54,610 nucleotides of DNA from Bdellovibrionales bacterium GWB1_55_8 (GTDB taxonomy: Bacteria > Bdellovibrionota > UBA1018). The stretch lies in the NCBI GenBank assembly GCA_001769835.1, contig MEPR01000051.1, positions 1-54,610 on the forward strand, given 5' to 3'. Below are positions 4,585 through 54,610 of this stretch, one piece after another. The notes beneath the pieces are model-generated. The model was not told the DNA's origin and searched no databases. It saw only the letters and a list, made by a program, of their open reading frames with translations. How positions within the stretch are numbered: position 1 is the stretch's first letter; every line of letters starts with the position of its first letter. A program made the translations under genes and the position numbers.

Positions 4585-6726
4585 TTACCTCACATCGATC
4601 ATGCCATTACAGGTCAATGTGATGCCGTCAAACGATGCACACACAATGACGTCTTTTTTTCCAGCTGTCGTGCTCCAAACAGGCGTCGTCCCGCCCGGCC
4701 ATTTGAACTCACTGGTAAAAGTCGGAGCTACGGTTGACGACTGACTGAGCCAGATCGAGAAACTATGGCCAGCGGCAAGGGCCGTGATGCCAAGCTGGCA
4801 CGCACCATTGAGAGTCAGGGTGAGCATCGTGCCGTTATTGGGATTAATGCTATACGATGTCGCACAGGTTCCGGCTGCCACGACCGTTTCTTTCGATCCC
4901 ACGCTGGTTACCGAGCCTGAAATATTGACCGAGCCATTAACGTCCAATTTTGCATTTGGGCTTGTAGTTCCGATCCCGACGTTGCCCGAATCGCCTATCC
5001 TCATCCGCTCTGTCTTTGTGGTGGTGCCGATCGCTGTTGTCTCTAGAGTTATATAGGTTCCCTGATTGGTCGATGAAAATGGTTCAGCGGAAAGCATTCT
5101 TAACATCGCTCTGTTGGCGGTGATCCACTGGCTGCCGTCGTAACCGCTACCACCCAATCCGAAAAGAACTGTATTAGCAGCCGTTGCTCCCGGGGTCGTA
5201 ATTGTTCCATCGGCGCCTTTTCCCTGAAAAATGGGACCAACTTGGCTAACTGAGGCGTTCGCTGATCTGAGTTCGAAACGCTCATTATTACTATTTCCGG
5301 ACAAGAAAATCGAAGCCGACCCTGCCGGAAGTGTGCTTGACGATCTGACCTCCAGGGGAAACCCCGGACTCGTCGTCCCAATTCCCACATAGCCCGCGCC
5401 GGTAATATTATTGCCGCCCATCGCTATCGCGCCACTCATCGTGCCGCCCGCAAGAGGAAGCTTTGTGGAATCAGATGAACCTGGAACACCCCAAGAGACC
5501 GCTCCACTTCCGTCAGTAGTCAGGAACTTGCCCGCATTCCCGGCCTGAGAAGGTGCGAGTGCATTAAACGCGGCAGAAGACGTGGTCTGTCCCGTACCGC
5601 CATTGCCAATCGCTACTGTACCAGTCACATTCGAAGCGGTTCCAGAAACGTTGCCTGTCACATTACCAGTGAGGCTCGCCGTGATCGTGCCGGCGCTGAA
5701 ATTACCAGAGCCATCGCGCTTAACCAGCGTACTGCTCGTGCTCGCATTGGTAGCACCAAAGAGATCCAGGTAGTGCGCTGAACTCATCGAACCAGCGGAA
5801 ACACCGCTCGCCGCCGTGATTGAAAACTCCCCAGTCCCGCTGTCATATCCAAGCGGAGCGGCGGCGGACGGGCTCGTTCCGGAATCAATACCCAGCGTCT
5901 TTACGTTTGCGCCATCCCAATATTTGATTTCACCTGATCCTGAGTCAAACCAGGTACGTCCTGTTTTCGTCGAATCACTGCTCCAGCCCGTCGTGTCCGG
6001 ACTTCCAGACTGAACGCCGAGGCCAAGATACTTCCCGCTGCCCAATGACAGGGAACCATCGACCGCGAGCTGCGCATACACGGCATCGTGATGATGAAGA
6101 GAAGACGCATCTTGCGGTCCGCCGAAACCAAAGATCGTATCGAGCGCACTTTTACTGAGTTCGTATGAAGAGGCTGCGCCGGTGATCTGAACAAATTTCG
6201 TGGGGTCCAGTCCCTGGAGCGTCTCTGCCACCGTGGCTTGCGGAACCGGCGTGATTGTCAGGTCCGGGCTCATTGTTTCAGATGCTCCGCCATGAGGATA
6301 AACCGTGACTCTCAGTTTTCGAGGATCCCCGGGTGAGGGCGTATACCCGCCGGGACAGTTCGGCCCGGCGGCAACAACCGGCGACGCGTTGGAAAAAATG
6401 ACCGAGATGGATTTACCAGGATCACGTCCGGCAACGCGCTTCGGGTTCCCCACCTCTGATCCGACATGAACGGAAAAAAGCCCAGACGTAAGCGACAGAT
6501 CGATATTGAGATCCTGCTGCTCATAGAGCAGGCAATTCCCATCCGGCGAATAAACTCCAATCACCAGATCAACGACATCTGTCATCGCAGACTGCCCATC
6601 GGGCGTGAGAAATCGTCCTTGGTAGATGAATCCCTGATAGAGCTGGGCTGGCGCTGCAAAAGCGGTCGAGCCGGAACTCAGGATCAGGAGAATAATTCGC
6701 AGAATTTGTTCTAGTCTGTCGCGCAT
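4585..6726 (-). CDS. Secreted phage-tail-fibre-like protein (mosaic adhesin type)
   Basis: 713 residues, signal peptide 1-25 (ending T-A-F-A-A). The N-terminal domain (30-160) is shared with the fragment at 1-264. Then come modules familiar from phage long tail fibres: H-H-H-D-A-V-Y near 211-217 (the H-x-H-D-x-x-Y type repeat), G-E-I-K-Y-W-D-G near 265, L-T-G-N-V-T-G-N-V-S-G repeats at 352-375, I-G-N-G-G-T-G-Q-T-T at 373-382, and V-G-I-G-T-T-S-P twice (about 437 and again near 595). The C-terminal 80 residues form a compact domain. No intramolecular chaperone/protease domain is visible. Bdellovibrio is reported to use such chimeric trimeric fibres (mosaic adhesive trimers) to recognise prey. 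Prey or surface binding here is inference; the fibre architecture is seen directly. Confidence 0.82.
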   Translation of the reverse strand: MRDRLEQILRIILLILSSGSTAFAAPAQLYQGFIYQGRFLTPDGQSAMTDVVDLVIGVYSPDGNCLLYEQQDLNIDLSLTSGLFSVHVGSEVGNPKRVAGRDPGKSISVIFSNASPVVAAGPNCPGGYTPSPGDPRKLRVTVYPHGGASETMSPDLTITPVPQATVAETLQGLDPTKFVQITGAASSYELSKSALDTIFGFGGPQDASSLHHHDAVYAQLAVDGSLSLGSGKYLGLGVQSGSPDTTGWSSDSTKTGRTWFDSGSGEIKYWDGANVKTLGIDSGTSPSAAAPLGYDSGTGEFSITAASGVSAGSMSSAHYLDLFGATNASTSSTLVKRDGSGNFSAGTITASLTGNVTGNVSGTASNVTGTVAIGNGGTGQTTSSAAFNALAPSQAGNAGKFLTTDGSGAVSWGVPGSSDSTKLPLAGGTMSGAIAMGGNNITGAGYVGIGTTSPGFPLEVRSSSTLPAGSASIFLSGNSNNERFELRSANASVSQVGPIFQGKGADGTITTPGATAANTVLFGLGGSGYDGSQWITANRAMLRMLSAEPFSSTNQGTYITLETTAIGTTTKTERMRIGDSGNVGIGTTSPNAKLDVNGSVNISGSVTSVGSKETVVAAGTCATSYSINPNNGTMLTLTLNGACQLGITALAAGHSFSIWLSQSSTVAPTFTSEFKWPGGTTPVWSTTAGKKDVIVCASFDGITLTCNGMIDVR

Positions 6727-29799: not shown

Positions 29800-29868
29800 C
29801 TGAAGGAGAAACTCCCCACCTCGTACACACTTTGCAAGCGACGCCTTTTGCCTTCGGGGGGACTCGCA

Positions 29869-32163
29869 ATGACCAAGTCTGAAAAACGCGGAATGCTGAT
29901 TTCGAAACGTTGGCTTCATGCGTCGCTTTTCGTTTTTCTGATCGGATTCTTCGTACTCGGCTTCCTTGCCTTTCGCACGTACGGCCATGCTCCTCCGATC
30001 CCGGTCAGCGTAGTGGACTCATCCGGAAGCGTTGTATTCACGGGCAGGGATATCCAGGACGGACAACGCATTTTCCTGCGCAGCGGCCTGATGGAATACG
30101 GCTCCGTATTCGGCCACGGCGCATACCTTGGACCCGATTTCACAGCTGACTATTTGCGGCGCGCTGCGGAATTCGTGGCTGACGCAAATGGCGGCAAGGA
30201 CAAACCAGAAGCGCGTTTTCGCACGGCTCGCGAGTTCAAGGAAAACCGCTATGATTCTCAGACCGGGATTCTGACTCTTACCACCACTCAGACAGCAGCT
30301 CATGCGCGAATGCTGGAACATTATCGCGAATATTTTTCTGATGCCGCCGCGACCAAAGGACTGCAACCGGGAATCCTCTCGAACGCTGAGGACCTGAGAA
30401 AAGTAACCGCATTTTTCGGATGGGCAGCATGGGCTTCTGCCGCACTACGCCCAGGCAAAGATTATTCTTATACGAACAACTGGCCCCCAGAGCCGCTGGT
30501 GGAAAATCGGCCGACGGCCGATATGGTTTTCTGGAGCGTCCTTTCACTGATCGCCTTATTGGGCGGCATCGGCCTTCTGCTCGCTTCGTTTGGAAAGTGG
30601 AACTTTTTGGGGTGGCACGGACGCGAGAGCCTCATCCTCTCTTTCCGGCGTCCTGGCGATGTGGCGCTCACTCCTGCCCAGCGAGCCTGTGCCTGGTTCA
30701 TGCTCGTGATGGCGGCGCTGTTCCTGCTCCAGACACTGGTCGGCGGCGCCACCCAGCACTACCGTGCGGAGATATCTGGTTTCTTCGGCTTGAACCTCGC
30801 TCAATACATCCCATTCAACCTGGCTCGGACATGGCACATCCAGCTCGCTATTTTCTGGGTATCCACGTCCTTCCTGGCCGCGGGAATCTTTCTCGCACCC
30901 ATGATTTCGGGTCGTGAACCGAAGGGTCAGGCGGTTCTTTCCTACCTGCTGCTCGGTGCTCTCGCCGTCGTCGTCTTCGGCAGCATGGCAGGCGAAATGC
31001 TCGGAATTCACGGAATCACAACGAGTCTCTGGTTTGGAAATCAAGGCATGGAATACCTGGATTTGGGCCGCTTTTGGCAGTTACTGCTGTCGATCGGGCT
31101 ATTCTTCTGGGTGGTGATCGTTTTCCGGAGCTTGAGAGCCAGGCTGCCGTCGGACCACATCGGCAACATGCCTTGGCTCTTCTTCTTCTCCGCGCTGGCA
31201 ATTCCGTCATTTTACGCGGTTGGCCTCCTGTCACACCCCGACTCATCATTCACCGTGAACGACTTCTGGCGCTTCTGGGTGGTCCATCTCTGGGTGGAGG
31301 ATTTCCTCGAGTTGTTCACGACAGTGGCCGTAGCCTATATTTTCGTCTTACTCGGAGTTGTGACCGAAAAAATCGCGCTCCGGGTCGTCTACCTCGACAT
31401 CATTCTGTACTCGATCGGCGGAGTGGTCGGAACAATGCATCACCTGTACTTCTCGGGCGAGCCGGTCGAGCACATGGCGCTCGGCGCGTTCTTCTCTGCT
31501 GCGGAAGTGATTCCGCTGACGTTCCTGACCGTTGAAGCCTGGAGCTTCGTGCGTCTGGGCCTGCATCAGCAGGCTAAATCGGCGGCACCGTTTCCTCATC
31601 GATGGTCGGTCATGTTTCTCGTTGCCGTGGGATTCTGGAATTTTCTCGGAGCCGGTATTTTTGGATTCCTGATCAATCTGCCGATTGTTTCCTACTTCCA
31701 GATCGGAACCGCCCTCACCGCCAACCATGGACACGCTGCGATGATGGGTGTCTACGGGATGCTCGCGGCCGGGCTCGCGCTTTTCATCCTTCGCTACCTG
31801 ATGCCCGACGACAGGTGGTCGGACCGTGCCGCGAAAATCAGTTTCTGGTCACTGAACCTGGGGCTTGCATGGATGGTCTTCGCCACTCTGTTTCCGATCG
31901 GACTCGTTCAGTTGTATCACTCGGTCCGGGCTGGATACTTCGAAGCTCGTCAGATCGATTTCCTGACGACGGATACGCTGAGATTGATCGAGTGGCTTCG
32001 ACTTCCGGGAGACGCCGTTTTCATTATCGGCGGAGTGCTGCCTCTGCTCTGGCTCTGCTGGAGAGGCGTCCGGTACCGCGTGAAACCCGCACCAGCTGAC
32101 ATCACTCATCAACCCCTTTTCACTGAAGTGAGCGGCACATCGGAAAACCGGGGCCTTGAATGA
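29869..32163 (+). CDS. norZ: Quinol-dependent nitric oxide reductase (qNor)
   Basis: 764 residues; the ATG at 29869 has a GGGGGGA site upstream, while the earlier TTG at 29848 has none. It reduces NO to N2O with electrons from quinol in the inner membrane. The N-terminal extension (about 20-230) is the fused NorC-like region with W-A-A-W-A-S-A-A. The NorB-like core has twelve or so helices with the metal-site histidines in L-A-R-T-W-H-I-Q-L, V-V-H-L-W-V-E-D-F-L-E-L-F and G-T-M-H-H-L-Y-F-S-G, plus G-S-M-A-G-E-M-L-G-I-H-G. Length and order fit the single-subunit norZ type. No NO2- or N2O-reductase is near, so detoxification is more likely than full denitrification. It overlaps the next gene by four bases. 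Confidence 0.95.
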   Translation: MTKSEKRGMLISKRWLHASLFVFLIGFFVLGFLAFRTYGHAPPIPVSVVDSSGSVVFTGRDIQDGQRIFLRSGLMEYGSVFGHGAYLGPDFTADYLRRAAEFVADANGGKDKPEARFRTAREFKENRYDSQTGILTLTTTQTAAHARMLEHYREYFSDAAATKGLQPGILSNAEDLRKVTAFFGWAAWASAALRPGKDYSYTNNWPPEPLVENRPTADMVFWSVLSLIALLGGIGLLLASFGKWNFLGWHGRESLILSFRRPGDVALTPAQRACAWFMLVMAALFLLQTLVGGATQHYRAEISGFFGLNLAQYIPFNLARTWHIQLAIFWVSTSFLAAGIFLAPMISGREPKGQAVLSYLLLGALAVVVFGSMAGEMLGIHGITTSLWFGNQGMEYLDLGRFWQLLLSIGLFFWVVIVFRSLRARLPSDHIGNMPWLFFFSALAIPSFYAVGLLSHPDSSFTVNDFWRFWVVHLWVEDFLELFTTVAVAYIFVLLGVVTEKIALRVVYLDIILYSIGGVVGTMHHLYFSGEPVEHMALGAFFSAAEVIPLTFLTVEAWSFVRLGLHQQAKSAAPFPHRWSVMFLVAVGFWNFLGAGIFGFLINLPIVSYFQIGTALTANHGHAAMMGVYGMLAAGLALFILRYLMPDDRWSDRAAKISFWSLNLGLAWMVFATLFPIGLVQLYHSVRAGYFEARQIDFLTTDTLRLIEWLRLPGDAVFIIGGVLPLLWLCWRGVRYRVKPAPADITHQPLFTEVSGTSENRGLE

Positions 32164-44859: not shown

Positions 44860-44898
44860 GGCCACGGATCGGCCGCTAACACCTACATGGAGGTAGGT
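44860..44898 (+). promoter_or_regulatory. Two GGA-loop hairpins in the flagellin-1 leader (CsrA-type sites)
   Basis: Hairpin A: GGCC (44860-44863) pairs with GGCC (44871-44874) around ACGGATC. Hairpin B: ACCTAC (44881-44886) pairs with GTAGGT (44893-44898) around ATGGAG and ends next to the start codon. Each loop shows A-N-GGA, the CsrA motif, and hairpin B contains the ribosome site. Another hairpin (44824-44840) upstream has no GGA loop. Confidence 0.6.
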
Positions 44899-45744
44899 AT
44901 GGGACTACGAATCAATACAAACGTACCCTCCTTGGTCGCGCAAAGAAATTTGCGTTCCACCCGTGGTTCCCTCGATCGCACTCTCGAAAGACTCAGCTCA
45001 GGATCACGAATCAACCACGCCGGCGATGACGCCGCGGGCCTCGCGATTTCCGAAAGCCTTCGAGCTCAGATCCGCGGACTAGGTCAGGCCGAGCGGAACG
45101 CGCAGGACGGCATCTCCCTGGTTCAGGTCGCCGAAAGCGCGATGGGCGAAGTTTCAAACATTCTCATCAGGATGCGCGAACTCGGTGTTCAAGCCGCATC
45201 CGACACGGTCGGACCGCAGGAGCGCCGGTTCCTCGACGTCGAATTCCAGCAGCTGATGGAAGAGGTCGATCGAATCGCGAACAGCACCGAATTCAATGGA
45301 ATCCCCCTTCTGAACGGAAATGCCTCCACATTTGAAATTCAGGTCGGCACGGGAAACAACCCTGCAATCGACCGGATCAGGCTCTTTGATTCAAATTCCG
45401 CGGACATCAGTGTGGTTGCGCTGGGGCTCAACCTGAGCAATGTCGCCGACAAAGCCAGTGCCCAGAACAGTCTGGCCTCGATCGACGACGCGCTTCAGGG
45501 CGTGACCTCCATTCGTGCTGAATTCGGCGCCATGCAGAACCGCCTGCAATCGGTTTCCAACAACATCATGATCAGCAAGGAAAACCTCTCAGCTGCAAAC
45601 AGCCGAATCCGCGATGCAGATATCGCCGAGGAAACTACCGAGCTGACGAAAAATCAGATTCTGACTCAGTCTGGCATCTCAGTGTTGAGCCAGGCGAATA
45701 GTACAACCAAAGCTGCCCTGGGACTCCTGGGGCAAGGAGGATGA
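44899..45744 (+). CDS. fliC: Flagellin 1
   Basis: 281 residues. The start is the ATG at 44899, matching M-G-L-R-I in the two later copies; an in-frame ATG at 44887 lies inside the leader hairpin. The N-terminal D0/D1 (N-T-N-V-P-S-L-V-A-Q-R-N-L, L-E-R-L-S-S-G-S-R-I-N-H-A-G-D-D-A-A-G-L-A-I) and C-terminal D1/D0 (N-R-L-Q-S-V-S-N-N, N-S-R-I-R-D-A-D-I-A-E-E) are complete. The variable region is minimal, as is usual in Bdellovibrio-like flagellins. It has a sigma-28 promoter and is unlike copies 2 and 3 in its middle part. Confidence 0.95.
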   Translation: MGLRINTNVPSLVAQRNLRSTRGSLDRTLERLSSGSRINHAGDDAAGLAISESLRAQIRGLGQAERNAQDGISLVQVAESAMGEVSNILIRMRELGVQAASDTVGPQERRFLDVEFQQLMEEVDRIANSTEFNGIPLLNGNASTFEIQVGTGNNPAIDRIRLFDSNSADISVVALGLNLSNVADKASAQNSLASIDDALQGVTSIRAEFGAMQNRLQSVSNNIMISKENLSAANSRIRDADIAEETTELTKNQILTQSGISVLSQANSTTKAALGLLGQGG

Positions 45745-46125
45745 TGAAAAGTTTACCCTGAAGCAAAGGCACGTTGCCTGAGCTTGTTTCCTGGATAGAG
45801 GCTATCGGTCCGCCCGTATCGTCCAAGACGGTACGCTGCGGGTGGGCCGAACCTCAAAACCATAAACAGGCCCTTTAGGACTCGAGCCCTACGCACGGCC
45901 ATCAGATCCTGTGCGGGGAACGAACACAAGTTTGACGGGAAGGAGTTCGCTCCATTCGCGTCAAAGACCACCCGGGCCCGAGGCCCAGATGGACGCAGTG
46001 AGTGACTTGTCACAGTCCCGCGTGCGGGACGTTGTGATGAGGAGATAAACGGTAGTGCAGTAAAAATAGCGGCGAATTGCCGGCCTCGCGCAAGCGAAGC
46101 CGGGGATCCGGCGCATAAACAAAAA
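45745..46125 (+). other. Structured gap between flagellin 1 and 2 (candidate RNA)
   Basis: No credible gene is seen, although a 138-codon frame exists on the minus strand. The stretch is dense in stems: 45806-45816 with 45839-45849 (G-T pairs allowed); 45931-45937 with 45959-45965 enclosing GGAG-TTCG-CTCC; 45974-45978 with 45982-45986; 46010-46021 with 46024-46037 (almost perfect, two-base loop). It should also hold the promoter of flagellin 2; a weak FliA-like pair lies at 46061-46086 (TAAAAATA, 10 bases, GCCGGCCT). The stems could be a terminator, a processed leader or an independent RNA. Confidence 0.4.
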
Positions 46126-46199
46126 GGGCATGGATGCCCGCCGCCCCTATGGATAGGGGTGTGTCGCATGGAGGATGACGCTTATGAACGGAGGCTAAT
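46126..46199 (+). promoter_or_regulatory. GGA-loop hairpins in the flagellin-2 leader (CsrA-type sites)
   Basis: Hairpin GGGC-ATGGAT-GCCC at 46126-46139; hairpin CCCCT-ATGGAT-AGGGG at 46144-46159; single ATGGA at 46168-46172; ACGGAGG ribosome site at 46188-46194. Order, spacing and loop sequences repeat in the leader of flagellin 3, while the stem bases differ but still pair. Confidence 0.65.
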
Positions 46200-47033
46200 A
46201 TGGGTTTGCGAATTGCGACGAACACAACTGCGCTGAACGCGCAGAGGCAGATGGCAACGACACGACTCAATCTTGATAAATCGCTTGAACGGCTCGCCAG
46301 CGGCAGCCGCATCAATCGCGCAGGCGACGATGCCGCAGGACTCGCGATCTCGGAGAATCTCCGGGCTCAGATCCGCGGTTTCAGACAGGCGAAACGAAAC
46401 GCGTCCGATGGCGTCTCGTTGATCCAGGTCTCGGAAGGTGGACTGAATGAGATTTCAAACATCCTCATTCGTTTGCGGGAACTCGGCATCCAGGCCGCTT
46501 CCGACACGATCAGCGATACGGAACGCCAGTTCACGGACCGTGAATTCCAGTCTCTGAAAGAAGAAGTGGACCGGATCGCGAATGTCACGCAGTTCAACGG
46601 CACTCCCCTGCTCAACGGCAAGGCCGGGATCTTCGAGATCCAGGTCGGCACAAGGAACAACCCGGTACTCGACCGCGTGGTCTATAACGGCGAAAGATCC
46701 GATGCCTCGCTCGATGCGCTGAACCTGGGCGGCGAGTCTGTCGCCACCAAACAGGGTGCACAGTTGAGCCTCGCGGTGATCGACGACTCCTTGATCCGGG
46801 TGAACAGCATCCGAGCGGATCTGGGCGCCATGCAGAACAGGCTTCAATCGACGATCAACAACCTTGCGATCAGCGATGAAAACCTCTCGGCAGCCAACAG
46901 CCGCATCCGCGATACCGACATGGCCGAAGAAGTCTCCGAGATGACCAAGCAGAACATCCTGATGAACGCCGGCATCTCCGTCCTCGGGCACGCGAACACA
47001 ACGAGCCAAGCGGCCGTGAAGCTGCTCGGATAA
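46200..47033 (+). CDS. fliC: Flagellin 2
   Basis: 277 residues, ACGGAGG before the ATG. N-terminal and C-terminal D0/D1 regions are complete (N-T-T-A-L-N-A-Q-R-Q-M, L-A-S-G-S-R-I-N-R-A-G-D-D-A-A, and at the end N-S-R-I-R-D-T-D-M-A-E-E-V-S-E-M). The middle is short, with F-N-G-T-P-L-L-N-G-K and V-G-T-R-N-N-P-V. It differs from flagellin 3 at only about fifteen positions, so the two are recent duplicates, and it is clearly separate from flagellin 1. It is followed by a gap of 111 bases and then flagellin 3, probably on one transcript. Confidence 0.95.
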   Translation: MGLRIATNTTALNAQRQMATTRLNLDKSLERLASGSRINRAGDDAAGLAISENLRAQIRGFRQAKRNASDGVSLIQVSEGGLNEISNILIRLRELGIQAASDTISDTERQFTDREFQSLKEEVDRIANVTQFNGTPLLNGKAGIFEIQVGTRNNPVLDRVVYNGERSDASLDALNLGGESVATKQGAQLSLAVIDDSLIRVNSIRADLGAMQNRLQSTINNLAISDENLSAANSRIRDTDMAEEVSEMTKQNILMNAGISVLGHANTTSQAAVKLLG

Positions 47034-47067
47034 TACCGGGCGGTCCGCTTCTCGCAACAACAACACG

Positions 47068-47144
47068 CCGGCATGGATGCCGGTCCACTCCAAAGGATAG
47101 GAGTGCGCTACATGGAAGCTGGGCATTTATGAACGGAGGCTAAT
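47068..47144 (+). promoter_or_regulatory. GGA-loop hairpins in the flagellin-3 leader (CsrA-type sites)
   Basis: Hairpin CCGGC-ATGGAT-GCCGG at 47068-47083; hairpin CACTCC-AAAGGATA-GGAGTG at 47086-47105; ATGGA at 47112-47116; ACGGAGG ribosome site at 47133-47139. The same array as in flagellin 2, with compensating changes in both stems. Confidence 0.65.
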
Positions 47145-47978
47145 ATGGGTTTACGAATTGCGACGAATACAACTGCGCTGAACGCGCAGAGGCAGATGGC
47201 CACGACTCGCCTTAACCTTGATAAATCGCTTGAACGGCTCGCCAGCGGCAGCCGCATCAATCGCGCCGGCGATGATGCCGCAGGACTCGCGATCTCGGAG
47301 AATCTCCGGGCTCAGATCCGCGGCTTCAGACAGGCGAAACGAAACGCATCCGATGGCGTCTCGTTGATCCAGGTCTCGGAAGGTGGATTGAATGAGATTT
47401 CAAACATCCTCATTCGTCTGCGGGAACTCGGCATCCAGGCCGCGTCCGACACGATCAGCGATACGGAGCGCCAGTTCACGGACCGTGAGTATCAGTCCTT
47501 GAAAGAAGAAGTGGACCGGATCGCGAATGTCACGCAGTTCAATGGCACTCCCCTGCTCAACGGCAAGGCCGGGATCTTCGAGATCCAGGTCGGCACAAGG
47601 AACAACCCGGTACTGGACCGCGTGATCTACTACGGCGAAAGATCCGATGCCTCACTGGACTCCCTGAACCTGGGTGGAGAATCGGTTGCCACGAAACAAG
47701 GGGCACAGCTCAGCCTCGGAGTGGTGGACGAGGCATTGATTCGTGTGAACAGTATCCGAGCGGACCTCGGCGCCATGCAGAACAGGCTTCAATCGACGAT
47801 CAACAACCTTGCGATCAGCGATGAGAACCTCTCTGCAGCCAATAGCCGCATTCGCGATACAGACATGGCCGAAGAAGTTTCCGAGATGACCAAGCAGAAC
47901 ATCCTGATGAACTCCGGCATCTCCGTACTCGGACATGCGAACTCGACGACTCAGGCAGCACTGAAGCTGCTCGGCTGA
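47145..47978 (+). CDS. fliC: Flagellin 3
   Basis: 277 residues. Same ribosome site and the same first 100 residues as flagellin 2; the differences cluster in the middle (R-E-Y-Q-S-L; V-I-Y-Y-G-E-R; S-L-G-V-V-D-E-A-L-I) and near the C-terminus (M-N-S-G-I-S-V-L-G-H-A-N-S-T-T-Q-A-A-L-K). All flagellin signatures are intact, so it should be functional. No sigma-28 site was found in the 111-base gap before it, so it probably depends on the flagellin-2 promoter. Several similar flagellins in one filament are typical of Bdellovibrio. Confidence 0.95.
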   Translation: MGLRIATNTTALNAQRQMATTRLNLDKSLERLASGSRINRAGDDAAGLAISENLRAQIRGFRQAKRNASDGVSLIQVSEGGLNEISNILIRLRELGIQAASDTISDTERQFTDREYQSLKEEVDRIANVTQFNGTPLLNGKAGIFEIQVGTRNNPVLDRVIYYGERSDASLDSLNLGGESVATKQGAQLSLGVVDEALIRVNSIRADLGAMQNRLQSTINNLAISDENLSAANSRIRDTDMAEEVSEMTKQNILMNSGISVLGHANSTTQAALKLLG

Positions 47979-49544: not shown

Positions 49545-50032
49545 GGATCCCCCTACCTGTAGGTGAGTGTATTTCTGTCTGAGTGGGATTGTCAAATTTA
49601 TGGATAGTCACGGCCGATTTCGCCGTAAGTTCTGCGCTTTGCGCCCGCTTTGGATTTAGCCGGGGCCCCGTTGGGGTTCCAGCGAGCCGAAGCCCCGCAT
49701 TGCGGGGCTGGAGAGCTGGAATTAAAAAAGACCCGAGGCCGGCGAAGTCAAATGGACCCCTAAAATCTTAGGTGGGCGCCGTATGGTCAGCTTTAGGCTT
49801 CCTGGTAAAACCAGGCATGCACACCACTGACAGGGACAGCTCCCTTGGTCTTGACTGTCGGGACCAAATGAAACGGTGCCGGCCCCGGGTCACCTACGAT
49901 TATAGCGGAAATCCAAGACCCCAACACAAAAAATCGAACCCAGCGAGAATTCAAAAAGAAGCCGACGAGAATTGCTCGACCTTTGAAGTGTGGCTTTACA
50001 GCACCCCCAGGAAATGACACAATTTTTTTCAA
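49545..50032. other. Long non-coding gap upstream of the response regulator
   Basis: A gap of 488 bases with no convincing gene. It holds a compound hairpin at 49677-49721 (outer TTCCAGC/GCTGGAA, inner AGCCCCGC-ATT-GCGGGGCT) and two small perfect hairpins at 49759-49772 (CCTAA/TTAGG) and 49801-49815 (CCTGG/CCAGG). There is no T-tract on the plus strand; read on the minus strand, the outer stem is preceded by T-rich bases. It may be a leader or a small RNA. Confidence 0.35.
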
Positions 50033-51121
50033 ATGCCTGGAAAAAAAATCCTTGTAGCAGACGACAGCTTGACAATACAAAAAGTCATCCGCCTTGCCTT
50101 ATCGAACGAGGGATATGACATACAGGCGGTTTCCGACGGAAACGACGCCATTCAGCAGATCGCCGTATTTCGGCCGGATGTCGTACTGATTGACGTGTCG
50201 CTTCCAGCAAAATCCGCCTTCGAGGTCAAGAGAGCAACTGATGCTGAGCCCAGCTCTGCAGATCTCCGGTTCGTGCTCATGTCGAGCGCTTTCGAGCGTG
50301 TTGACGAACAGCAGATCCAGGAGCTGCAGTTTCATGGTCAGCTCACCAAACCATTTGATCCGGCACATCTCAGAAAAGTGCTCACGGATGTTCTGGCGTC
50401 CGCACCAGAAAGAATGCCGGCTGCATTCGAAGAGCAGATTCAGCCCTCCATCGAACTGGTCCCGCCACCGCTGCCGGCGTTTGACTCACCCAGCCTGGAA
50501 GAGGCACCACTCCCCGATTCCTTTGGAGCTCCTGAATTTGATGAACTCTCATCTGCGGCACCGCTTTCTCTCGACATGCCGTTTGAGCTCCCCCCCGAAC
50601 TCCCCCCGGAGCTGCCGCCGATTCCGACCGCACCGCCTTTTGCCCCCAGCCGACCACCACTACCGAGCAGCAAGCCGGCAACTCCCGCACAGGACGATTC
50701 CGATATCCGACACCTGACCGAATCAACCATTCGAATGAGCGGTCTCGATGATTTTGAGTGGAGCGTGAAAGAACCCTCCCTTAAACCTACTTCCGACATC
50801 GTGGACCTGTCAGATTCTAATTTCCCGGAATTTCCATCCGCGCTTGAGCCCGGAAGCGAACCCGATTCACCGCTGCCGGGACCGGATCTGCCGCAAGCAG
50901 ATATCGGCGGATCCGAGTTTGAGGAGTTGCACCTCGACATTCCCGAACATCAACAGCGCCCGTCCAACGAATTGCAGGGCCTCTCACAGGCTGCCATTGA
51001 AGAAATGGTTCGCAACGAAGTTCAAGAAGCGCTTGCGAGGATGGCTCAGCAGATTCTTCCGGAAGTCGCCGAACGGGTCATCAAGCAGGAGATTCATCGA
51101 CTGCTTTCAGAGCAGCCCTGA
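50033..51121 (+). CDS. Response regulator with proline-rich linker and C-terminal helical tail
   Basis: 362 residues. A complete receiver domain (1-122): acidic pair D10-D11, phosphoacceptor D54 in V-L-I-D-V-S-L-P, T/S near M-S-S-A-F and the K106 of L-T-K-P-F. A long Pro/Ser/Asp-rich linker (about 125-310) leads to a short amphipathic end (A-L-A-R-M-A-Q-Q-I-L-P-E-V-A-E-R-V-I-K-Q-E-I-H-R), the type seen in delta-proteobacterial and related response regulators. There is no DNA-binding or enzymatic output domain, so it probably acts through protein contacts. There is no clear ribosome site before the ATG. The 3' end overlaps birA by 41 bases. Confidence 0.88.
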   Translation: MPGKKILVADDSLTIQKVIRLALSNEGYDIQAVSDGNDAIQQIAVFRPDVVLIDVSLPAKSAFEVKRATDAEPSSADLRFVLMSSAFERVDEQQIQELQFHGQLTKPFDPAHLRKVLTDVLASAPERMPAAFEEQIQPSIELVPPPLPAFDSPSLEEAPLPDSFGAPEFDELSSAAPLSLDMPFELPPELPPELPPIPTAPPFAPSRPPLPSSKPATPAQDDSDIRHLTESTIRMSGLDDFEWSVKEPSLKPTSDIVDLSDSNFPEFPSALEPGSEPDSPLPGPDLPQADIGGSEFEELHLDIPEHQQRPSNELQGLSQAAIEEMVRNEVQEALARMAQQILPEVAERVIKQEIHRLLSEQP

Positions 51122-51866
51122 TACGGATCTCTTCAGCATAGAGAGCCTGCTCGCCAGCAGGCTCTGCTTCCGCTTGAACGCGCAGTTCAGAGGAGGGCCC
51201 CAGCCCTCTCACCTCTCCGGAAAGAACTCTGCCATCAGAAGTGTCCCATTCGATTCGCATCCCGGGACGAAGCAAAGCGAGGCGAGCATATTCAGCGGCG
51301 ATCTCTCTCGCTCCCTCCGCGCCACGCGCAAGGCTTCGCACAGAAGCAAGAATCGCCTGTGCTGCGTCCGAGCGGATCGCGTCAGCTGAAACCGGAGTTC
51401 CGGTTTCCCTGGTCAGAGAAGTGGCGTGTCGCGTGAGGCCTTCTGTTGCGGACAGTTGGGGCGCGTGAAGGCAATTCAAACCCAACCCGACGATCAAGAA
51501 AGCTCCCGAAGAACTCCCAACGGATTCGCACAGAATTCCGGAGAGCTTTCCATTTGCAGTGACCAGATCATTAGGCCACTTCACTTGCACCTGAAGATCG
51601 GGAAACCTCGTTTTGAGATATCGGGCCAAACCGACCGCAGCCGCGAGCGGAACCCATGTCCAATGAGATGGCTTGGGCGTACGTACGATCGTGGATAAAA
51701 ACAGATTTCCCGGTTCAGAACTCCAGACTCTCCCCAGGCGACCGCGTCCCTGTGTCTGTAGTCGCGCTGAAACCCATGAACCTTCCGGAGCACCCGCTTC
51801 ACCCAAAAGGCGGGCTGCCTCGTTCGTGGAGCCGCAAGTCTCCAAAATCCTGCAGACGGGCTCCAC
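51081..51866 (-). CDS. birA: Biotin-[acetyl-CoA carboxylase] ligase
   Basis: 261 residues. It activates biotin to biotinyl-AMP and attaches it to the biotin carboxyl carrier protein. The motifs are G-S-T-N-E-A-A near 12, T-Q-G-R-G-R-L-G-R-V-W (biotin/ATP loop, 38-48), V-K-W-P-N-D-L near 94 and G-K-L-S-G-I-L-C-E near 106. The N-terminal winged helix of bifunctional BirA is missing, so this is a monofunctional ligase and not a repressor. It is one base after nadC and likely co-expressed. The 3' end overlaps the response regulator. Confidence 0.93.
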   Translation of the reverse strand: MEPVCRILETCGSTNEAARLLGEAGAPEGSWVSARLQTQGRGRLGRVWSSEPGNLFLSTIVRTPKPSHWTWVPLAAAVGLARYLKTRFPDLQVQVKWPNDLVTANGKLSGILCESVGSSSGAFLIVGLGLNCLHAPQLSATEGLTRHATSLTRETGTPVSADAIRSDAAQAILASVRSLARGAEGAREIAAEYARLALLRPGMRIEWDTSDGRVLSGEVRGLGPSSELRVQAEAEPAGEQALYAEEIRIRAALKAVDESPA

Positions 51867-51867
51867 C

Positions 51868-52782
51868 TCAGGTCACCAGAAGAGACAAATCGGCGGCGCG
51901 AACGGAATGGGTCAAACCGCCCAGTGAAAGGATGTCGACGCCGGGCATCGCGTATGCAGCGATCGTATTCTCGTTCAAACCGCCGGAAACCTCGATCAGC
52001 GGACGGTGAGATGAGCGCTCGACCAGAGCCACCGCGTTGCGTACTTCCTTCGGCGAAAAGTTGTCCAGCATGACAACGTCCGCCTGTGCGCGAAGCGCCT
52101 CAGAAAGCTCGCGTTCCGAACGTACCTCCACCTCAATTTTCAATCCATGCGGGGCAATCCGCCGCGCGGCCGTTACCGCCTTGGACACGCTCCCCGCGGA
52201 AGCGATATGATTTTCTTTTACCAGCACTCCTCCGGCAAGGTTCACGCGGTGACTGTAGCCACCTCCGGCAATGACAGAATGGATTGCGATGTCGCGGTAA
52301 CCGGGAAGGGTTTTTCGGGTCGCCGTGATCCGGGGAGTGCGTTCAGGACATGCCTTGCGCACAAGTTCCACGATACGACGGGTAGCTGTCGCCACACCGC
52401 AGGCATAAGCCGCAAGGTTCAGAAATGGCCGCTCCAACGCGAGCACGAGTTCGGGAATTCCTTTCCATTCGCAAACCGTTTGGGTTTTCTTGAATCTGGT
52501 TCCGGTGCGCACTCGAGATGAAGCCGTCAGAAGTTCACGCGCGCGCGACGCAGTTCCGAGTTCCGGCGCCACCAGTGAGAGTGCCGCCACCAAACCCTCA
52601 GCAGCCCAGATGCCGTCCGACTTCGCGATAATCCGAGCTTTCACCGAAGCGGACTTGGGCTGAATCCCGAGCGAGGTCCAATCCCAGGGCCAACCATCCT
52701 CCTTCACACCTTGAAGGAGCAGAGACTTCCAAATAGCGGGGCTATCGTGATAGCTCATTGAAAACTTCGTCGAGTGGTTCAC
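51868..52782 (-). CDS. nadC: Quinolinate phosphoribosyltransferase (nicotinate-nucleotide pyrophosphorylase)
   Basis: 304 residues; GTG start at 52782 supported by AGGAG eight bases upstream. It makes nicotinate mononucleotide from quinolinate and PRPP in NAD biosynthesis. The motifs are complete: A-T-R-K-T-L-P-G-Y-R (153-162), H-R-V-N-L-A-G-G-V-L-V-K-E-N-H (178-193), I-E-V-E-V-R-S near 216, D-V-V-M-L-D-N-F near 234 and I-E-V-S-G-G-L-N near 265. The gene diverges from rph with 57 bases between the starts. Confidence 0.96.
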   Translation of the reverse strand: MNHSTKFSMSYHDSPAIWKSLLLQGVKEDGWPWDWTSLGIQPKSASVKARIIAKSDGIWAAEGLVAALSLVAPELGTASRARELLTASSRVRTGTRFKKTQTVCEWKGIPELVLALERPFLNLAAYACGVATATRRIVELVRKACPERTPRITATRKTLPGYRDIAIHSVIAGGGYSHRVNLAGGVLVKENHIASAGSVSKAVTAARRIAPHGLKIEVEVRSERELSEALRAQADVVMLDNFSPKEVRNAVALVERSSHRPLIEVSGGLNENTIAAYAMPGVDILSLGGLTHSVRAADLSLLVT

Positions 52783-52839: not shown

Positions 52840-53568
52840 ATGAACGCACGTCAAGCAGCTGGAAGAACCAATCTCGATATCCGTACGGTCTCAATCGATA
52901 CAAACGTGAATCTTTATGCTGAAGGCTCTGTGCTGATTCGCTCGGGGAACACCCACGTGCTCTGCACCGCTTCCGTTGAGGAATCTGTCCCGGGCTGGAT
53001 GAAAGGCACCGGTAAAGGCTGGATAACCGCGGAATACTCCATGCTGCCCAGAGCCACTCATACGCGCGGAAAAAGAGATCGGGAAAAAATCTCCGGCCGG
53101 ACCCAGGAGATCCAGCGCCTGATCGGGCGCGCCCTGAGGTCCATGGTGAAACTCGAATCACTGGGAGAACGCTCCATTCTCGTTGACTGCGACGTACTGC
53201 AGGCGGACGGCGGTACACGAACCGCTTCGATCACCGGTGCCTGCGTTGCGGTAGGAATCGCGCTGAAAAGGCTCGAGCGCGAAAAAAAGCTTGCCGTGCC
53301 GCTTGCTGAAATCTGGCTGGATACTGTCGCCGCGGTGAGTGTCGGAATCGCTGCAGGAGAACCCGTCGTCGACCTCGACTACAGCGAAGACTCGACTTGT
53401 GACGTGGACATGAACTTCGTCATCACCGGCAAGGGTCTCTTTGTTGAAGTGCAAGGCACCGCCGAACGGGGCGCTTTCTCAAAAACCGATCTGGACAGGA
53501 TGACTGCGGCTGCACAGGTTGCGGTTGAGAAGCTGAAGAAAATCCAACTCCGGGCCATGGAACAATAA
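52840..53568 (+). CDS. rph: Ribonuclease PH
   Basis: 242 residues, AAGGGG before the ATG. A phosphorolytic 3'-5' exoribonuclease that trims tRNA 3' ends. The family sequence is intact: [17 protein letters not shown] near 28-44, [18 protein letters not shown] near 92, [18 protein letters not shown] (phosphate site, about 113-130) and D-L-D-Y-S-E-D-S. Length matches the usual 240. Confidence 0.97.
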
Positions 53569-53665: not shown

Positions 53666-54151
53666 ATGAGGCGAATCACCCATATCCTGCTCCCTGGTAT
53701 CATCGCCCTGCTGACCTTTTCAGCCGCATACGCGAAGGCCAATATTATCTCGTCGCAACCGGCCAGCGGGCTTCTTCCGGATATTATTCTCCGTCACATC
53801 GACTGTCGGATTGTTCACAGGGTCCCGAACGACTTCCCGGTCGTGCTGGCCGACGCGAACATCAATACACTCAGTAAAAACCCCAAGGACTTCACTCTCA
53901 ATGCGACATCCGCGGATGGGCACACCTTCACCGCAGCGGTCTGGCATGTTCCGACGGCTTACCCGACCTCACGTTTTTGGGTGACCATTCAGCTTGATGG
54001 TAAACCGCTCATTCGAGTGACTCACATCGATATGATCATCTGGTTCGAGTGGACTCACAACGGCAACACCTACGCTCTCCACTGCGACAAACCCGTCGAG
54101 CTCCCGGAAGACGAGCTCATGGAAGAGATGAAAAAGAACCAGCGCGAATAA
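53666..54151 (+). CDS. Small secreted protein, unknown function
   Basis: 161 residues, GGAG ahead of the ATG. Signal peptide 1-23 (I-A-L-L-T-F-S-A-A-Y-A-K-A). The mature part is a small beta-rich domain with I-L-R-H-I-D-C-R-I-V, T-F-T-A-A-V-W-H-V-P, F-W-V-T-I-Q-L-D-G and I-W-F-E-W-T, and only two cysteines (likely one disulfide). The acidic, lysine-containing end (E-D-E-L-M-E-E-M-K-K-N) is probably helical. No known family. It is convergent with hgcB. Confidence 0.65.
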   Translation: MRRITHILLPGIIALLTFSAAYAKANIISSQPASGLLPDIILRHIDCRIVHRVPNDFPVVLADANINTLSKNPKDFTLNATSADGHTFTAAVWHVPTAYPTSRFWVTIQLDGKPLIRVTHIDMIIWFEWTHNGNTYALHCDKPVELPEDELMEEMKKNQRE

Positions 54152-54168: not shown

Positions 54169-54456
54169 TCAGCAGCAACCGGATTTATCGCAGCCACAGC
54201 TCGGCTCACCGCCACGGATCATTCCGTTGATGATGGCGGCAGCGCAACCCACGCCGGCGGATACACTCAGCGCGCCCGCCTCGCAATTCTTCATGCAAGC
54301 GCCGCACTCCATGCATGCTTCTCGGTCGTGAAGAACAGCACGTTTATTCTCGAATGCAAAAACCTCGCGAGGGCAAACCTCGACGCAGCGCTGGCACCCG
54401 TTGCACTTTTCGGGAAGATACTGAAGGCTCACATTGCGCAGATAACGGAACTTCAT
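54169..54456 (-). CDS. hgcB: HgcB, ferredoxin partner in mercury methylation
   Basis: 95 residues, the family length. Two [4Fe-4S] sites: C18-x2-C21-x2-C24-x3-C28-P and C48-M-E-C-G-A-C54-x3-C58. The C-M-E-C-G-A-C motif is the diagnostic HgcB signature. G-V-G-C (Cys71) is the conserved lone Cys, and the C-terminus carries the vicinal cysteines (C-G-C-D then G-C-C, 87-95). HgcB reduces the corrinoid of HgcA during methyl transfer to Hg(II). The ATG overlaps the stop of hgcA (ATGA), and the codons before it match the HgcA C-terminus, so this is a genuine hgcAB pair and not a stray ferredoxin. Confidence 0.95.
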   Translation of the reverse strand: MKFRYLRNVSLQYLPEKCNGCQRCVEVCPREVFAFENKRAVLHDREACMECGACMKNCEAGALSVSAGVGCAAAIINGMIRGGEPSCGCDKSGCC

Positions 54457-54610
54457 GGCCCCCCCGAAAACAAGCGGACGCCCAGCAAAGCGGTCACCGA
54501 CAAGAGGGCGCCAGCTGCGTACACCGGGAGAGCCAGCTTCAATTCCCGCTTCACCCCTGAAAAATGCGTGAACGGAGTAGACCCTGTGAACTGCAGCGCA
54601 ATGTACGAGG
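54453..54610 (-). CDS. hgcA: HgcA, C-terminal end (runs off the window)
   Basis: The last 51 codons and stop are in the window. The sequence S-Y-I-A-L-Q-F-T-G-S-T-P-F-T-H-F-S-G-V-K and then L-K-L-A-L-P-V-Y-A-A-G-A-L-L, with a hydrophobic stretch ending near the stop, matches the end of HgcA, the corrinoid membrane protein that transfers a methyl group to mercury. The stop overlaps the hgcB start by four bases, as in known hgcAB operons. The corrinoid-binding cap-helix region (N-V-W-C-A-A) lies outside the window and cannot be checked. Confidence 0.85.
   Translation of the reverse strand, partial: SYIALQFTGSTPFTHFSGVKRELKLALPVYAAGALLSVTALLGVRLFSGGP

Follow-up and report, generated by a model that had tools for sequence, protein, structure and literature searches.

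An apparently intact hgcAB operon in the chromosome of a probable Bdellovibrionota bacterium

The HgcAB system of Pseudodesulfovibrio is composed of HgcA, a membrane-associated cobalamin methyltransferase, and HgcB, a ferredoxin with two [4Fe-4S] clusters; a conserved cysteine provides Co-thiolate ligation and S-adenosylmethionine is the methyl donor (PMC11588087). One conserved cysteine of HgcA and three of HgcB (C73, C94 and C95) are apparently crucial (PMC11588087). The presence of hgcAB predicts potential producers of methylmercury, and in surveys the capacity to form it is attributed according to host taxon. A survey reporting hgcA from about 30 phyla, along with extensive lateral transfer, kept Deltaproteobacteria as one class and left Bdellovibrio unmentioned (PMC7438021), and another mercury paper merely lists Bdellovibrionota as a split of Deltaproteobacteria (PMC8557936). 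In a full-text search of open-access papers, we found no documented report of hgcAB in Bdellovibrionota. The function of HgcAB is known already; what appears to be new is the host phylum.

Here we analyzed a stretch of 54,610 nucleotides (hereafter, the window), which corresponds to positions C51:1-54610 of a parent contig of 56,182 bases. It very likely carries part of a genuine, apparently intact hgcA-hgcB operon located on the chromosome of a probably facultatively anaerobic member of Bdellovibrionota (family f1). As in Pseudodesulfovibrio mercurii ND132, hgcA and hgcB are neighbouring genes, and HgcA combines a corrinoid domain carrying the cap cysteine with membrane helices (PMC11588087). 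HgcB is likewise a dicluster ferredoxin with a lone cysteine and a terminal CC, a likeness established at the level of motifs. The present locus differs from that of ND132 in host phylum and in that no ArsR-type regulator lies next to hgcA within the contig, unlike in two further carriers of the same phylum (G355 and G300, see below); such regulators are already known near hgcAB (PMC7438021).

The hgcB gene (54169..54456, minus strand) encodes a 95-aa ferredoxin with two [4Fe-4S] motifs. In a profile search it scored 115.2 bits against the equivalog model NF040864 (NCBIfam; cut-off 99), and the E-value of 8.8e-34 is far beyond chance. The translation starts with MKFRYLRN and contains the cysteine clusters CNGCQRCVEVCP (C18/21/24/28) and CMECGACMKNC (C48/51/54/58), followed by the lone Cys71 within GVGC and by the vicinal pair Cys94-Cys95, which ends the protein (SGCC). 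The earlier note, made from the nucleotide sequence of the window, had described HgcB as complete, with the CMECGAC motif, a second 4Fe-4S site, the lone cysteine of GVGC and terminal vicinal cysteines, and this description holds. The stop codon of hgcA and the start of hgcB overlap by 4 bp (54453..54456, minus strand), an arrangement that suggests translational coupling.

The frame overlapping hgcB from upstream (54453..54610, minus strand) is the 3′ end of hgcA; it includes the last transmembrane helix of the corrinoid protein and goes on to C51:55514. On the parent contig, the full gene (C51:54453-55514, equivalent to L001:949-2010(-)) encodes 353 aa, of which 19 residues are unread: a 55-base N stretch (C51:54611-54665) inside hgcA ends the window, and the reading frame is kept across it. 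In the alignment, the length missing at the N stretch fits HgcA of G355 within a few residues. We considered whether the N stretch joins unrelated contigs and rejected this option, because the two flanks encode consecutive parts of HgcA on one strand and in one frame, and the size of the gap agrees with the alignment.

HgcA scored 387.2 bits against the equivalog model NF040863 in the profile search (cut-off 275, E 5.6e-116), in agreement with the assignment of the upstream frame to the HgcA C-terminus in the earlier note, which had about 50 C-terminal residues at its disposal. The full protein also contains the cap motif, for which the consensus is N(V/I)WCAAGKG: INVWCAAGKGTFG (NVWCAAGKG from residue 102) with Cys105, which sits within TRAINVWCAAGKGTFG. 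The N102-G108 stretch, Cys105 included, is invariant among 20 aligned HgcA proteins from many phyla. In addition, HgcA matches PF03599 (Pfam) with 42.8 bits. The AlphaFold2 model of residues 1-283 has a mean pLDDT of 87.4, and a Foldseek search with this model returned 9a0b, a published computational HgcAB model, as the first hit (E 3.5e-17), followed by five entries of the corrinoid/iron-sulfur protein (CFeSP). Judging by the model, HgcA has a corrinoid-binding domain with a CFeSP-like fold. This fold is common to HgcA and the CFeSP large subunit (the gamma subunit, corrinoid protein of CODH/ACS), but the sequence match is limited to HgcA residues about 50-174, and CFeSP is devoid of the HgcA-type membrane domain. 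DSSP assigns no helix to the cap segment, a call to which we give little weight, since the model holds no corrinoid. The reference criterion for HgcA is five C-terminal transmembrane helices; our protein has three long modelled helices before the gap, one hydrophobic stretch after it, and one region within the 19 unread residues. Taken together, we regard the identity of the two genes as true hgcA and hgcB as virtually certain.

A distinct issue is whether the pair might represent an HgcAB paralogue or a decayed copy that performs other corrinoid chemistry and does not methylate mercury. Such a reading could draw on the long HgcA branch (about 1.06 changes per column), on the existence of relatives that form a separate family, such as the fusion form NF043039, and on the occurrence of divergent pairs in the same phylum (L005 and L006). 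Nevertheless, we consider it improbable, as both proteins score well over the equivalog cut-offs, the N102-G108 stretch and every HgcB cysteine are kept, the frame is open and codon use is host-like. The comparison with the fusion proteins themselves points the same way. These proteins (e.g. L005 of genome G129) also possess corrinoid and ferredoxin domains and the NVWCAAG motif, but here the two domains are encoded by two genes, and NF043039 gives 200.5 and 58.1 bits, under its cut-off of 285.

If the pair is indeed a true HgcAB, its mode of action may be outlined by reference to the Pseudodesulfovibrio enzyme. By motif, HgcA Cys105 and HgcB Cys71, Cys94 and Cys95 are evident counterparts of the crucial cysteines of the latter. 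In HgcA, Cys105 in the cap region would ligate the cobalt of a bound corrinoid, and the protein would pass a methyl group on to Hg(II) at the membrane. The two [4Fe-4S] clusters of HgcB would serve to reduce the corrinoid, and Cys71 and the Cys94-Cys95 pair of this protein would bind mercury and hand it over. S-adenosylmethionine, shown to donate the methyl group in Pseudodesulfovibrio (PMC11588087), probably does so here too. Corrinoid use is plausible in this host, because its genome encodes a B12-dependent methionine synthase-type protein (MetH; TIGR02082 is the best family, 865 bits, partial frame) and a methylmalonyl-CoA mutase B12 domain. Carriage of hgcA does not always mean methylation; by analogy with the characterized enzyme, mercury-methylating activity of the present pair is likely.

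The genomic context of hgcAB is chromosomal. At lower window coordinates than the pair lie genes for a BirA-type biotin ligase (51081..51866, minus strand; TIGR00121, 104 bits), NadC (51868..52782, minus strand; TIGR00078, 240 bits) and ribonuclease PH (rph, 52840..53568, plus strand; TIGR01966, 320 bits), which serve as chromosomal anchors. The birA-nadC-rph order is shared by all ten genomes sampled from the host's GTDB family, and nadC was found beside rph in none of the other loci examined. This block ends about 600 bp from hgcB, and the intervening sequence is gap-free. The rph product is 61-72% identical to those of ten same-family genomes, and at most 59% identical to those of families f9 and f11, Desulfuromonas, Nitrospirota, Spirochaetota and others. 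Past hgcA, on the side away from rph, lies a DUF2784 gene, homologues of which occur in three members of the family (46-57% identity). Codon-usage scores of hgcA (0.097) and hgcB (0.108) are in the middle of the range for 46 window genes (0.000-0.162, median 0.081), and the G+C content of the window is even. Based on the synteny, the rph identities, the DUF2784 homologues and the typical codon use, we consider it highly probable that the contig is sound; neither composition nor context gives any sign of the chimeric join considered in the earlier note.

Between rph and hgcB, there is an orphan ORF for a 161-aa secreted-protein-like product (53666..54151, plus strand), which converges on hgcB. 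It has no match in Pfam, NCBIfam or PHROGs and no homologue in any of the 34 other family genomes, and is thought to be a neighbour rather than part of the hgcAB system. The orphan leaves no family-specific gene immediately beside hgcB, which could be taken to mean that hgcAB was misassembled or misbinned from a co-occurring methylator of the Nitrospirota, Spirochaetota or Myxococcota type, all the more so as the nearest HgcA relatives, about 48-55% identical, come from those phyla and the estimated contamination of the bin is 2%. We find such an artefact very improbable. The synteny block shared with the family reaches to within about 600 bp of hgcB without a gap, homologues of the DUF2784 gene beyond hgcA are present in the family, codon use is typical and G355 carries hgcAB independently; moreover, no close donor sequence was found and HgcA is deeply diverged.

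To which phylum does the host belong? In the RpoB tree, it grouped with full support with three family members (86-91% identity; 91% to G355) and with family f9, which belongs to the same phylum. This clade lies inside a branch also holding E. coli and delta-type genomes and is separate from Nitrospirota, Spirochaetota, Fibrobacterota, Nitrospinota, Bacteroidota, Planctomycetota and Bacillota. The possibility, raised in the earlier note, that marker genes would assign the contig to an already known methylating phylum found no support in RpoB, which is positioned outside Nitrospirota, Spirochaetota, Fibrobacterota, Nitrospinota and the sampled delta-type genomes. DUF4423, the domain of TIGR02147 proteins, is present in 169 of the 192 genomes of the host phylum (88%); among 22 named genomes, it was detected in 3/3 Fibrobacterota and 0/19 representatives of other phyla, and in 0/14 controls. 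Both Fibrobacterota and Bdellovibrionota have expanded sets of TIGR02147 proteins, and as RpoB excludes the former, these proteins point to the latter. Together with MAT-type adhesins, TIGR02147/DUF4423 proteins are typical of Bdellovibrionota, if not strictly defining. The window encodes a 713-aa surface protein (4585-6726, minus strand) with five PDB sequence matches, including 8oml, 8ond and bd2133, and its sequence resembles the MAT trimeric adhesins of Bdellovibrio. 8OML is cited in the paper on MAT adhesins of Bdellovibrio bacteriovorus, and bd2133 is one of the proteins described there; these adhesins are implicated in prey recognition (PMC10769870).

The RpoB tree, the DUF4423/TIGR02147 distribution and the MAT-like adhesin together make it highly probable that the host is a member of Bdellovibrionota. 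There is a small chance that it represents another lineage split from the old Deltaproteobacteria and already known to carry hgcAB (e.g. Myxococcota or an unnamed phylum), given that the RpoB tree took in no certain Myxococcota and no named Bdellovibrionota reference, and that methylators of Myxococcales have been described (PMC7438021). Such a placement is at odds with the presence of DUF4423/TIGR02147 in 88% of the sampled phylum and in no sampled non-Fibrobacterota genome outside it, with the adhesin matches to Bdellovibrio MAT proteins and with the exclusion of Fibrobacterota by RpoB.

Within Bdellovibrionota, as the host phylum is taken to be, hgcA is rare. HgcA over the NF040863 cut-off was found in only three of the 369 genomes of the phylum, namely, the host, G355 and G300. 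Two carriers are among the 35 genomes of the host family, the host and G355, which belongs to another genus and has its own hgcAB pair with both proteins over the cut-offs; G300 comes from a distant family. We then compared these proteins in a tree of 81 HgcA sequences, from which L006 was left out for its extreme branch length. HgcA of the host and of G355 fall in a cluster (100/96 support) with those of Nitrospirota, Spirochaetota, Actinomycetota, Fibrobacterota and delta-type genomes, yet neither has a supported sister, and G300 HgcA belongs to the other main cluster. The closest sampled sequences, from Nitrospirota MAGs and bacterium BMS3Bbin05 (L009-L013), are 47-55% identical and share the same major cluster, whereas the host HgcA is a lone deep branch. 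Neither a sister relationship of the host and G355 HgcA (AU p 0.60) nor a clade uniting both with G300 (AU p 0.26) was rejected. Identity between the host and G355 is about 49-50% for HgcA, compared to 68% for rph, 60% for NadC and 49% for BirA.

These data may be accommodated by old inheritance of hgcAB in the host and G355 followed by fast change. Alternatively, the two pairs may be separate acquisitions, a possibility opened by the 49% identity of their HgcA and by their different neighbourhoods. The patchy distribution, with few family members carrying the genes, and the different neighbourhoods favour transfer, and a deep lone HgcA branch among Nitrospirota, Spirochaetota and Actinomycetota is what would be expected after it. 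We infer that hgcAB was probably acquired laterally.

Several observations concern the other carriers and HgcAB-like proteins of the phylum. In G355 (L144, G355:C37, 3670-17900), an ArsR-type regulator and an RND efflux pump adjoin hgcAB, and a membrane cluster resembling complex I and group-4 hydrogenases is located on the same contig, farther from hgcAB. An ArsR-type regulator is also found alongside hgcAB of G300, the contig of which (L146, G300:C254) is 14 kb long with 39% G+C. DUF4423 is absent from all four listed genomes of the G300 family (f25), unlike most of the phylum, and the bin or placement of G300 deserves a check. Family f9 of the same phylum has two HgcAB-like loci. L006 (G062:C7, 1288-2621) comprises a divergent pair of hgcA-like and hgcB-like genes, which scored under the cut-offs (156 of 275 and 87 of 99, respectively) and showed ~30% identity to true HgcA, but kept the cap motif NVWCAAGKGQF and the terminal CC; no other close copy of such a pair was found in the 369 genomes. 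L005 (G129:C25, 1189-2313, minus strand) is a one-gene HgcAB-like fusion, with 308 bits against the NF043039 cut-off of 285.

As to the lifestyle of the host, its genome encodes a CcoN-like (cbb3-like) oxidase (TIGR00780 is the best family, 247 bits, under the cut-off of 583), a pair of qNor-like nitric oxide reductases, each about 780 residues long (29848-32163, plus strand, which has a NorB cytochrome-c-like domain, and G000:C12:14373-15713) and four POR-type genes. These few families suggest a facultative anaerobe or microaerobe. A member of Bdellovibrionota with oxygen- and nitric-oxide-reducing enzymes would broaden the span of redox conditions and lifestyles known for putative methylators, and its genes would provide new hgcAB reference sequences that present primers and databases may miss. 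The expectation of the earlier note that such an unusual host would widen the known set of methylators holds for gene carriage, with methylation itself predicted from the genes. Since about 30 phyla were previously recorded as having hgcA, with much lateral transfer (PMC7438021), the finding adds to an established pattern without overturning it. A more far-reaching scenario, in which mercury is methylated, for the first time in Bdellovibrionota, by a facultative anaerobe that is motile and possibly attaches to prey, at least two separate acquisitions took place in one family and a predator-type lifestyle is tied to methylmercury production, is in our opinion rather unlikely.

Finally, the window contains three flagellin genes in tandem (44887-47978, plus strand), two of which (46200-47033 and 47145-47978) encode identical first 60 residues, and a 6S RNA at 49726-49894 on the minus strand (RF00013, 85.9 bits).
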